Origin: Nitrospirales bacterium
GTDB lineage: Bacteria; Nitrospirota; Nitrospiria; Nitrospirales; UBA8639
DNA length: 64,000 nucleotides
Direction: 5' to 3'
NCBI GenBank assembly: GCA_021603905.1
Contig: BQIU01000008.1
Coordinates: 1-64,000 of the forward strand
The translations under genes were made by a program, and so were the position numbers. The notes beneath the pieces are model-generated. The model made no database searches and had not been told where the DNA came from. It saw only the letters and a program-made list of their open reading frames with translations. Numbering within the stretch: the first letter of the stretch is position 1; each line of letters opens with the position of its first letter. Positions 8,541 through 11,974 of this stretch are shown piece by piece.

Positions 8541-9518
8541 CTAGGGGGTGATCTGTTCAATGATTGCCGCGGCCAATAATGGAACCATGATCTCATGATG
8601 TCCGACCAGTGAATATCCCTGTCCTCCTTTTTGAGTCGGACGCCGTACGACATTCGTCATGGGACGATAGTGAGGGAGGAAGTCCATATTCACCGTTGTA
8701 ATGTTCTTCAATGATCGCCCGAGATTTCGGCTCAAGGTTACGGTCTTGAGAAACACTTCAGGAAGCATCACCGCCGATCCGAGATTGATATAGACCCCTC
8801 CTTCCATGTCAGACACGAGAGAGACCAGTGTCCGAAAATCAACGAGCGATCCTCCTCCAATGGCCGCACCATCGGCTGATGGATGCATGTGGATGATGTC
8901 AGTTCCCATGGCGACATGCACCGTAATCGGAATCCCTAATCTATGGCCTGTTACCAATAGACTTCTTTGACGATGTGGGAATTGTCTTGGGTGTTTGGTC
9001 ATATAGCGACCAACGGCCTCTCCGATTCCGAGCCCAGTCTTCCACCCCTCAAGAATGGCAGAATTTAAGATATGTCCTGTATCTTCGGCCATACCGAATC
9101 GGCCAGAGTCGATTTCTGCATCGACTTCCTCTGAGGTGTGTCCAAGGTAGGCGAGTTCAAAGTCGTGGATAATGACGGCTCCATTCACGGCGACGGCTGT
9201 GATGATGTTCCGCTTCATGAGATCAATCAGAATGGGATTGAGTCCGACTTTTGTCGGGTGGGCTCCCATGCCGAGGATGACAGGTTTTCCTCGTCCCCGT
9301 GCGCGGACGATAGCACGAACGACAGCACGAAGTGATTTCACAGCAAGAAAGTCGGGAAGGGTATCGAGAAAACTTCGAAAGCTTTTGCCCCGGCGCCAAG
9401 ATACCGCGAAGTCGGCAATATTGACCTTGCTGTGACGCGAGGAAAGCGGATACGTCTGAATCCTGGACAGGTTCAGCGGTTTACCGGACGTTGTGGGCGA
9501 ATTACGTCGTTTGGGCAA
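8541..9518 (-). CDS. deoxyhypusine-synthase-like protein of unknown function
   Basis: A 325-residue protein. By eye the order of motifs resembles deoxyhypusine synthase: a strand and turn at 80-93 (VILGMGAHPTKVG), an NGAVIIHDFELAYLG segment at 112-126, IPITVHVAMGTDIIHMHP at 196-213 and INLGSAVMLPEVF at 244-256. The catalytic lysine expected in the GGGxxKHH motif of true deoxyhypusine synthases has no equivalent here, so it is unlikely to make deoxyhypusine. The start overlaps the end of the GmhA-like gene by 17 bases, which suggests a linked role, perhaps in sugar-phosphate chemistry. Function unknown. Confidence 0.5.
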   Translation of the reverse strand: MPKRRNSPTTSGKPLNLSRIQTYPLSSRHSKVNIADFAVSWRRGKSFRSFLDTLPDFLAVKSLRAVVRAIVRARGRGKPVILGMGAHPTKVGLNPILIDLMKRNIITAVAVNGAVIIHDFELAYLGHTSEEVDAEIDSGRFGMAEDTGHILNSAILEGWKTGLGIGEAVGRYMTKHPRQFPHRQRSLLVTGHRLGIPITVHVAMGTDIIHMHPSADGAAIGGGSLVDFRTLVSLVSDMEGGVYINLGSAVMLPEVFLKTVTLSRNLGRSLKNITTVNMDFLPHYRPMTNVVRRPTQKGGQGYSLVGHHEIMVPLLAAAIIEQITP

Positions 9519-10083
9519 ACAGTCGCTCTTCTATGATTTCACATAATACATGGCCAAGAGTGATATGGCATTCCTGTATTCGAGCCGTCACCGTTGAGGG
9601 AACCTGAAAGCTGTAGTCCACCAGGTCCATTAATTGTCCTCCCGTTTGGCCTGTCCAGCCAATTGTGACAAGCCCTCGTTCATGAGCGACTTGAATACCC
9701 CTCAGCACATTTGGTGAATTTCCGCTTGTGCTAATGGCAATCGCGACATCGCCTTTATTCCCGTGGGCCTCAATCTGTCTGGAAAAAATATCGGTATATT
9801 CGTAGTCATTAGCAATACAGGTGAGCGCTGCCATATCAGTGGCTAAGGCCAAGGCAGGAAGAGCTGCACGATCGCGCTTGTACCGTCCAACGAACTCGGC
9901 TGCGATATGAGACGCATCCGTTGCACTGCCCCCATTCCCAAAAAGCAAGACTTTCCGGTTGTCATGGAATGCTCGAATGATAATCTGGGCGATGTCGATG
10001 ATTTGTTGAGCATAGGTTTGCACGAACCGACATTTAATATCGGCACTTGACTCAAAGGCCTCGACCACTAACTGTTTATCCAT
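9502..10083 (-). CDS. gmhA: SIS-domain sugar-phosphate isomerase, GmhA-like
   Basis: A 193-residue SIS protein close in length and motifs to sedoheptulose 7-phosphate isomerase, which makes D-glycero-D-manno-heptose 7-phosphate for lipopolysaccharide core. The phosphosugar-binding loops are GNGGSATDASH (49-59) and STSGNSPN (118-125). Likely catalytic residues are E63 and the QECHITLGH motif with E171, H173 and H177. Other heptose genes (hldE, gmhB) are not in the window. It is translationally overlapped with the deoxyhypusine-synthase-like gene, so a related DiaA-like or other ketose isomerase role remains possible. Confidence 0.85.
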   Translation of the reverse strand: MDKQLVVEAFESSADIKCRFVQTYAQQIIDIAQIIIRAFHDNRKVLLFGNGGSATDASHIAAEFVGRYKRDRAALPALALATDMAALTCIANDYEYTDIFSRQIEAHGNKGDVAIAISTSGNSPNVLRGIQVAHERGLVTIGWTGQTGGQLMDLVDYSFQVPSTVTARIQECHITLGHVLCEIIEERLFAQTT

Positions 10084-10290: not shown

Positions 10291-11553
10291 GTGAGTGCTG
10301 ACGGGCCAGTCAAAGCCCTCCTTATCGCCATGGCGCAGGATCCTGCGCCAGCTGTGTGCTCTCTTCAACGCTTAATCCCAGAGCGATTGTGTTTCTTTCT
10401 TCCAGAATCGAGTAAGAAGTTGGTGGAGTCTGATGTCCACCCTCAACTTTCAACCATGCCACAGAAGTGGGATTGGATACTCACGCCCGATCCTGAAAAT
10501 TTTGCGCAGTCTCACAAAACGCTAGCCGAATTGTTACCCAAACTCTTGAAATCCTGGGACGTAAATCCTGGCGAACTTGTCATTGATATCACGATGGCAA
10601 CCTCGCCAATGGCTGCGGCCATGGTGTTGGTCGGATTTCCCTATACGGCCAAAGTCGTAACATTGAGTATAGCAAGTGCCGAAAGACAATCGGATTCAAA
10701 AGTGATGATGGCAGGAGAAGCGGCAAGAACCTGGATTCAGAGTAATCCATGGGATGAAGAGGCTTTCTCTATTCGACAGGAAGCTTCAGGCTATTTCAAT
10801 CAAGGGTCATATGTCGCAGCCGCGAAAGTGTTTCGTCGCATCGAAGCTCGAGTGAGCGGAGGACTGAAGCCTTTGTATCGAGCCCTGTCGGACATTTCAG
10901 AGGGCTATCGGCAATGGGAACAATTTCATTATCGCCAGGCTTGGGAAAAATTAAAAAGTGCGAGTAAGGCTCTTGATTTGGCTTCTGCCTGGGGTGGCCC
11001 TCCAGGGATTTCGTCTTTTTTAAGAGGCGTGAAAGAGAATGTTCGATTTCTTGAAAACATTGTTTTGGATCCAGCCGAAGTGAAAAGCAAGCTTGCACAA
11101 GATTTATTGGCCCATGCGAAGCGTCAGATCGAACAACAACATGATGCCGAAATTGCCATACGCGTATTGCTCAGAGGCCTGACCGCATCAGCGCAGGCTC
11201 GTCTGTTTCATACCTATCAGATAAAAAGTTGGGATGTGAAACTTGAACAACTCCCGAAATCCCTGCAAGAGATTTGTCGAAATTGTTATTTGAATGATGT
11301 GGATGGCAAACATCGACTCCCATTCCCTGCTCAGTTTCATGTGTTGGCCGAGCACCACGATATCATGGGAAAGACGTTTCTCTCAGAATGGCCAAAAATG
11401 AAAACGCTTATTGATGCCGCTGATCATGCGGTCTTGGGGCAAGGGTTTGAACCCGTCAAGGCCGAGCGTTTTCACCAACTCTATGACTTGGTGCTGAAAA
11501 TATCTGCTATTCATGAACGAGACCTTCCGCAGTTCCCTCCCATGGCGTTGTAA
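10291..11553 (+). CDS. orphan CARF protein, Cas02710-like, with eroded active-site motifs
   Basis: With the GTG at 10291 the product is 420 residues. The frame stays open upstream to 10174, but those residues precede the first CARF strand (VKALLIAM, 7-14) and a promoter lies just ahead of 10291. The N-terminal Rossmann-like domain has DITMATSPM at 99-107, where this CARF family usually has D-x-TGGTK-x-M. The linker (YFNQGSYVAAAKVF, GYRQWEQFHYRQAWEKL) and the helical C-terminal part (LLRGLTASAQARL, then HAVLGQGFEPV) match the TIGR02710/Cas02710 layout. The HEPN RNase motif, normally around RNxSILAHG, is replaced by ADHAVLGQG (377-385). Family members bind cyclic oligoadenylates made by type III CRISPR complexes; no CRISPR or cas genes are seen here. 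Confidence 0.65.
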   Translation: MSADGPVKALLIAMAQDPAPAVCSLQRLIPERLCFFLPESSKKLVESDVHPQLSTMPQKWDWILTPDPENFAQSHKTLAELLPKLLKSWDVNPGELVIDITMATSPMAAAMVLVGFPYTAKVVTLSIASAERQSDSKVMMAGEAARTWIQSNPWDEEAFSIRQEASGYFNQGSYVAAAKVFRRIEARVSGGLKPLYRALSDISEGYRQWEQFHYRQAWEKLKSASKALDLASAWGGPPGISSFLRGVKENVRFLENIVLDPAEVKSKLAQDLLAHAKRQIEQQHDAEIAIRVLLRGLTASAQARLFHTYQIKSWDVKLEQLPKSLQEICRNCYLNDVDGKHRLPFPAQFHVLAEHHDIMGKTFLSEWPKMKTLIDAADHAVLGQGFEPVKAERFHQLYDLVLKISAIHERDLPQFPPMAL

Positions 11554-11569: not shown

Positions 11570-11974
11570 ATGAACATCAGGATTTATTATGAAGATACGG
11601 ACTGTGGTGGGGTGGTGTACTATGCGAATTATTTAAAGTACTTTGAACGCGCTCGAACGCATTATTTAGAAGAACGCGGTTTTTCAGTTGCCGAACTCAT
11701 TGGGCAAGACACGGAGTTTAGGGTGACGCATGCTGAGGTCATCTATAAGTCGGCCGCCAAGTACGGAGACGATCTACAGGTTGAAACCACACTTTCAGCT
11801 AATCGTCGCATATCTTTGACCTTTTCTCATATCATTCGCGAATGTCATTCGCGTCGTGTCGTCGTCGAAGGTTCGGCGACATTGGTAGCCGTGAACGGCG
11901 CAGGAAAGGTGAAGCGTCTGAATCCCATCTTTCTCAATGGTCTTGGTTTCCAGGAGTCATCTCCTGGCTCCTAA
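11570..11974 (+). CDS. YbgC/FadM-type acyl-CoA thioesterase (hotdog fold)
   Basis: A 134-residue single hotdog-domain thioesterase starting at ATG 11570, 16 bases after the CARF gene; an in-frame ATG at 11513 inside that gene would add 19 residues that do not fit the family. The active-site signature is intact: YEDTDCGGVVYYANYLKYFERAR with the catalytic aspartate in YxDTD. YbgC proteins hydrolyse acyl-CoA or acyl-ACP thioesters and are often linked to the Tol-Pal envelope system, but no tol genes are nearby. Probably co-transcribed with the upstream gene. Confidence 0.9.
   Translation: MNIRIYYEDTDCGGVVYYANYLKYFERARTHYLEERGFSVAELIGQDTEFRVTHAEVIYKSAAKYGDDLQVETTLSANRRISLTFSHIIRECHSRRVVVEGSATLVAVNGAGKVKRLNPIFLNGLGFQESSPGS

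Follow-up and report, generated by a model that had tools for sequence, protein, structure and literature searches.

The window, the whole stretch of 64,000 nucleotides analysed here, holds on its plus strand an open frame whose GTG start at 10291 is used by homologues too, and whose product is a genuine CARF-6H-HEPN (TIGR02710) protein. The features of the locus are given below; the neighbour counts refer to the 96 orphan loci compared in the next section and are lower bounds for the two divergent genes upstream, owing to short flanks.

8541..9518, minus strand: GSU2086 family protein gene, conserved and divergent neighbour (at least 70 of 96 loci)
9502..10083, minus strand: gmhA-like SIS-domain isomerase gene, conserved and divergent neighbour (at least 74 of 96 loci)
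10291..11553, plus strand: CARF-6H-HEPN gene, putative pseudo-ribonuclease, GTG start, 420 amino acids, stop codon included in the coordinates (profile matches)
10291..10734, plus strand: CARF (Rossmann-like) domain, about residues 1-148, boundaries approximate (TIGR02710 match, AlphaFold2 secondary structure, entropy)
10333..10341, plus strand: former CARF motif I (GG[ST]), residues 15-17, now AQD (column counts; motif as defined for Thermus thermophilus Csm6 in PMC10897365)
10591..10605, plus strand: former CARF motif II (TGGTK), residues 101-105, now TMATS, with S105 aligned to K137 of T. thermophilus Csm6
10780..11040, plus strand: Csm6 6H helical domain, residues 164-250 (Pfam PF22205; entropy)
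11092..11502, plus strand: Csm6-type HEPN domain, residues 268-404 (Pfam PF09670)
11182..11184, plus strand: residue 298 (T), aligned to E332 of T. thermophilus Csm6, the partner of the catalytic Arg; loss limited to the window's genus
11419..11445, plus strand: former HEPN R-x6-H site, residues 377-385, now ADHAVLGQG, with R415, N416 and H422 of T. thermophilus Csm6 replaced by A, D and Q
11570..11974, plus strand: YbgC/FadM-type acyl-CoA thioesterase gene (ybgC), 16 bases past the CARF stop (TIGR00051 above cut-off)
11952..11972, plus strand: terminator-like stem-loop with T run at the end of ybgC (pattern match only)

The protein scores 105.3 bits against TIGR02710 (cut-off 83.9), over residues 20-404 and model positions 2-380 of 384, and the Pfam matches to Csm6 6H and Csm6 HEPN both exceed their own cut-offs. 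The PADLOC model PDLC01812 ("CARF1--CARF_HEPN") matches it end to end with 597 bits. An AlphaFold2 monomer model, built from a shallow alignment of 16 sequences, is of moderate confidence (mean pLDDT 73, pTM 0.58), and its best PDB fold is T. thermophilus Csm6 (TtCsm6; 5fsh, Foldseek E 1.6e-10); a profile of the family matches the same TtCsm6 structures with E 2e-18. The three-domain CARF, 6H and HEPN architecture found with Pfam, AlphaFold2 and Foldseek bears out an earlier note on this DNA, which had assigned the gene to the TIGR02710/Cas02710 CARF-HEPN family.

Downstream, ybgC follows on the same strand at 88 of the 96 orphan loci. The gap between the two genes has a median of 25 bases and is at most 60 bases at 49 loci; it exceeds 250 bases at about one third of them, and given these wide gaps the association with ybgC might reflect no more than synteny. 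In the window, the only terminator-like hairpin found in this gene pair lies at the end of ybgC, with none between the CARF gene and ybgC, a pattern match that is consistent with a joint transcript. Upstream, the GSU2086 family protein matches NCBIfam NF052581 (431 bits) and no Pfam family at E 0.001, and the first 17 bases of its gene are shared with the end of the gmhA-like gene. At about 43 loci of the other main Nitrospirales family (e.g. L005-L016), a band-7 (SPFH) gene that is absent from the window separates the gmhA-like gene from the CARF gene; in L010, a locus that was checked, it adjoins an NfeD gene.

Loss of sensing and catalytic residues

Residue numbering was transferred through a profile alignment with the TtCsm6 structure 8jbb. 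Positions 105, 103, 298, 377, 378 and 384 of the window protein correspond to K137, G135, E332, R415, N416 and H422 of TtCsm6, and carry S, A, T, A, D and Q, respectively; CARF motif I (G58/T59/S60 in TtCsm6) has become AQD. In TtCsm6, the K137A substitution wholly abolishes both cA4 binding and RNA degradation, R415, N416 and H422 are parts of the R-x4-6-H site, and E332 holds R415 in the resting state (EMBO J. 2023, PMC10897365). The hallmarks of a Csm6 governed by cyclic oligoadenylate (cOA), namely CARF motifs I and II and the HEPN R-x4-6-H, are represented in the window protein by AQD, TMATS and A377...Q384. Given the behaviour of the TtCsm6 mutants and the replacement of residues at all six positions, we infer that the window protein neither binds cA4 nor cleaves RNA in the manner of Csm6, and the same mutants suggest loss of activity for the orphan family as a whole. 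The two eroded motifs, TMATS at residues 101-105 and ADHAVLGQG at 377-385, lie exactly where the earlier note had placed them, and the structural modelling and alignment that it had proposed as a check returned a CARF/HEPN match in which the key residues are lost.

To place this erosion in a wider context, 96 distinct full-length Nitrospirales proteins (the orphans) were compared column by column with 22 canonical homologues, which comprise same-phylum copies scoring far lower with the orphan-family HMM and a Thermus reference encoded beside cas1 and cas10; the two sets were split by score, not by motif. Lys105, Gly103, the catalytic Arg377, Arg292 and Asp288 are each present in all 22 canonical proteins and in none of the 96 orphans. 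His384, likewise found in 22 of 22 canonical proteins, is kept by 83 of the 96 orphans and is lost solely in one subclade of the window's family (groups g1, g5, g7 and g8), where the window protein and its relatives carry Q, N, Y or G instead. Glu298 is present in 22/22 canonical proteins versus 91/96 orphans, its loss being confined to the window's genus. Since Arg377 and Lys105 are absent throughout, while His384 persists in most copies, the losses of Arg and Lys are ancestral to the order Nitrospirales and that of His384 is local; the window protein is the most eroded member of a family that was probably already dead. The earlier note was right about the erosion, but its sharing across the order, the distinction between an ancestral Arg loss and a local His loss, and the purifying selection described below had gone unseen.

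The CARF loop of the orphans mostly retains D99, T101 and T104; G103 is replaced by A, S or T, K105 by P, A, S, V or T, and residue 102 is highly variable (G, R, M, S, D, N and others). The sole change of D99 to A among the 96 occurs in L095, the orphan of a genome (G251) with two canonical copies. We also considered whether the active site had moved, as the earlier note had allowed that the key residues might be present elsewhere in the protein. The canonical R-x6-H with its Arg at 377, found in 22/22 canonical proteins, occurs in 0/96 Nitrospirales proteins, and a scan of all proteins yielded only one other recurrent R-x(4-6)-H, R278-x5-H284, which is present in 56/96 and is not conserved.

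Distribution, selection and separation from type III CRISPR

A TIGR02710 profile search over 396 genomes of the phylum was positive for 27 of the 29 genomes belonging to the window's family (f1) and for 105 of the 109 in the other main family (f2), or 132/138 for the two together, nearly all in single copy. Family f3 has a match in one genome of three; the three genomes of family f4 gave none, nor did those listed from the remaining orders of the class. These family tallies are counts from listed rows, which include a small number of matches that are partial or (in G325, for instance) solely canonical. A Nitrospira MAG contig (L017, 1-1738) with a partly frame-shifted match and seven stops in one frame is excluded from all counts. 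In the tree, the orphans form one clade (SH-aLRT 100), within which f1 (98) and f2 (91) are each monophyletic, as vertical descent would predict. The orphan is near-universal in the order Nitrospirales, where it is passed on vertically and is usually present as a single copy. The sister group of the orphan clade (support 99) consists of three copies from family f21 of the same phylum, with both motifs intact; less confidence attaches to this deep placement than to the orphan clade itself, because support is by SH-aLRT alone and long branches occur among the distant canonical rows. As for a mobile origin, the family had no match in phages or viral contigs, and plasmids yielded only remote TIGR02710 relatives from Thermus and Rubrobacter, at about 22-25% identity.

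The frame is open in all 96 distinct full-length copies. Omega lies between 0.07 and 0.14 in the window's genus and its relatives (median 0.093, from 406 pairs), and values for the neighbouring genes, ybgC and that for cytochrome c peroxidase, are similar. Across 50 non-redundant orphan proteins, 54 positions are invariant. Some of the fixed residues are new: position 383 is Gly in 96/96 orphans and Ala in all canonical copies (A383G), and W60, D61 and W89, all within the CARF half, are invariant residues specific to the orphans. R278 and R295 are present in 96/96. Mean entropy in the orphans is lowest in 6H (1.06), followed by HEPN (1.10) and CARF (1.57), whereas among the canonical proteins it is 6H that varies most (2.31 vs 1.89 and 1.88 for the other two); it is the ranking of domains that can be compared here, as absolute values from sets of unequal depth cannot. 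This change in the order of constraint suggests that the functional surface has likely shifted away from the CARF pocket. Judged by these substitution patterns, the orphan is under strong purifying selection, with constraint rebuilt rather than relaxed. The suggestion in the earlier note that this is a domesticated CARF protein is strongly supported, at the level of the order.

The earlier note had seen no cas gene or array in the window, and had called for a genome-wide search for type III loci; the window indeed has no CRISPR array, and its genome (assembly about 91% complete) lacks Cas10, Cas1 and RAMP genes. Three genomes of the same genus, 98-100% complete, have no Cas10 and no RAMP proteins. 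Cas10 scores above cut-off in 13/197 Nitrospirales genomes (0/5 in the window's genus), and is present in 16/19 genomes with canonical copies, many of which have Cas10 or RAMP genes at most 20 kb from the canonical copy. Unlike a type III ancillary gene, the window gene neither lies in a Cas10 locus nor shares its genome with one. Across 109 loci (1.06 Mb), no CRISPR array was found near orphans; two flagged loci were rejected as an N run and a GC-rich repeat, and the same scan recovered arrays near the canonical copies L142 and L143. Both kinds of protein occur in six Nitrospirales genomes (G127, G218, G251, G263, G271 and G379), where the canonical copies keep the HEPN motif and the CARF lysine; the orphan is only about 20-23% identical to canonical paralogues of the same order. 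Two of these genomes, G251 (L035, L094, L095) and G127 (L054, L121), have canonical CARF-HEPN copies less than about 12 kb from Cas10, plus the dead orphan, and would be the best natural system in which to look for cross-talk between the two kinds.

What the orphan protein may do

It is very likely that the orphan is dead and decoupled from type III immunity. On balance, we favour the view that this Csm6 relative, catalytically dead and blind to cOA, has been exapted to bind or regulate without catalysis. A TIGR02710 CARF-HEPN enzyme would have been fixed in an ancestor as a chromosomal gene outside cas loci, and would then have lost, on the Nitrospirales stem, the lysine that binds cA4 and the catalytic arginine of its HEPN domain; this order of events, with capture as a chromosomal orphan first and loss of sensing and catalysis second, is plausible. 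Thereafter, the gene has been inherited vertically as a single-copy, near-core gene, mostly just upstream of ybgC. By analogy with Csm6, the orphan is presumably a homodimer, in which the conserved 6H core and a re-sculpted HEPN groove could bind a partner, either RNA or protein, with the CARF half retained chiefly for folding and dimerisation and its ligand possibly changed. The binding role is suggested by conservation alone, and we put forward the binding-scaffold mechanism tentatively, with rather less assurance than the loss of activity. The protein is probably a CRISPR-derived, near-core housekeeping factor of the whole order, with a new binding surface formed by 6H and the HEPN groove and no role in CRISPR immunity, perhaps an RNA-binding or YbgC-linked metabolic regulator.

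The most serious competitor, though an unlikely one, is a re-tuned sensor, in which CARF now recognises a small molecule other than cyclic oligoadenylate and relays the signal to a partner via the dead HEPN dimer. Retention of the DxT and T104 of the CARF loop in most orphans means that some ligand may still be bound; G103 and K105 have been swapped for a limited set of residues, and W60, D61 and W89 are invariant in the CARF half. However, CARF is the least conserved of the three domains, and the wide variation at residue 102 would be odd for a ligand loop. The idea in the earlier note that the protein senses something other than cyclic oligoadenylate is therefore possible, but weakened. A different kind of retention, that of His384 (83/96) and its partner Glu298 (91/96), means that some residual RNA chemistry may persist outside the window's subclade. 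An RNase of altered chemistry, in which these two residues together with R278 or R295 (both 96/96) would give weak or differently regulated cleavage, also finds a parallel in HEPN families listed as lacking the Arg but having the His (Anantharaman et al. 2013, PMC3710099). We nevertheless regard it as improbable, as the catalytic Arg is missing in 96/96, the alternative R278-x5-H284 is not conserved, and replacement of the His in the window's subclade, and of the Glu too in its genus, has not obviously been accompanied by a loss of constraint.

The remaining explanations fare worse. The earlier note had also raised an inhibitory CARF protein, and a dead Csm6 homologue could in principle act as an inhibitor or decoy of type III systems by sequestering cOA or forming inactive heterodimers with active Csm6, as the six genomes with both kinds might allow. 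As a general role this is unsupported and very improbable: few hosts have Cas10 above cut-off or a canonical paralogue, the lysine essential for cA4 binding is missing in all 96 orphans, and identity to same-order paralogues is low. Decay into a pseudogene, or a remnant of a lost type III system, would account for missing active-site residues and the lack of cas genes nearby, but 96 open frames, an omega of about 0.09, newly fixed residues and near-universal presence make it scarcely credible.

Comparison with known systems

CARF proteins have been studied almost exclusively as receptors of the type III CRISPR alarm, and members of the present family are not new: they are in PADLOC and are named "TIGR02710 CRISPR-associated" by NCBI rules. 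A literature search, with the main CARF classification paper outside its coverage, found no paper on this Nitrospira family, and a loss of both active sites that is under selection throughout an order seems not to have been described. Nitrospirales, the nitrite oxidisers and their relatives, are an environmentally important order, in whose genomes automatic labels for this gene ("CRISPR-associated", "Csm6", defence system) are misleading. PDLC01812, evidently built from close relatives, files the family as CARF-HEPN, and the loss of the active sites is unmentioned in the library.

The orphan shares the CARF-6H-HEPN layout and length of TIGR02710/Cas_Cas02710 proteins (Csm6 type, CARF1--CARF_HEPN) and scores above the family cut-off. 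However, the canonical members compared have TGGTK, GG[ST] and R-x6-H, and the window protein lacks all three. While the reference WP_011229155.1 (T. thermophilus HB8, pTT27) lies beside cas1 and cas10, the orphan is unlinked to cas genes and has become fixed throughout an order. T. thermophilus Csm6 TTHB152 (5fsh, 8jbb, 8jbc, 8jh1) is the best match both by structure and by profile against the PDB, and every one of its residues K137, R415, N416, H422 and E332 is replaced in the window protein.

The closest relatives are the three intact orphan copies of family f21 (L025, L026, L034), which are 35-37% identical and, unlike the Nitrospirales orphans, retain TGGTK and RNxSxLAHG. Cas10 is found above cut-off elsewhere in two of the three genomes, the third having a weak match only. 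At least two of these intact copies lie outside any visible cas locus (L135, L136; genomes G042, G017), beside nadK-like, rho, prfA, murA and his-type genes, as identified by reading the translations, with no array found. Catalytically inactive HEPN domains that also lack the Arg/His pair have been described and proposed to bind nucleic acids (PMC3710099). The same study marks the CRISPR-linked Csm6 (Cas_Cas02710) as motif-bearing, and the Nitrospirales orphans would represent a dead branch of that family. They are a clear natural example of how a suicide RNase can take on another life, with one step, the intact orphan copies, still visible in the sister lineage.
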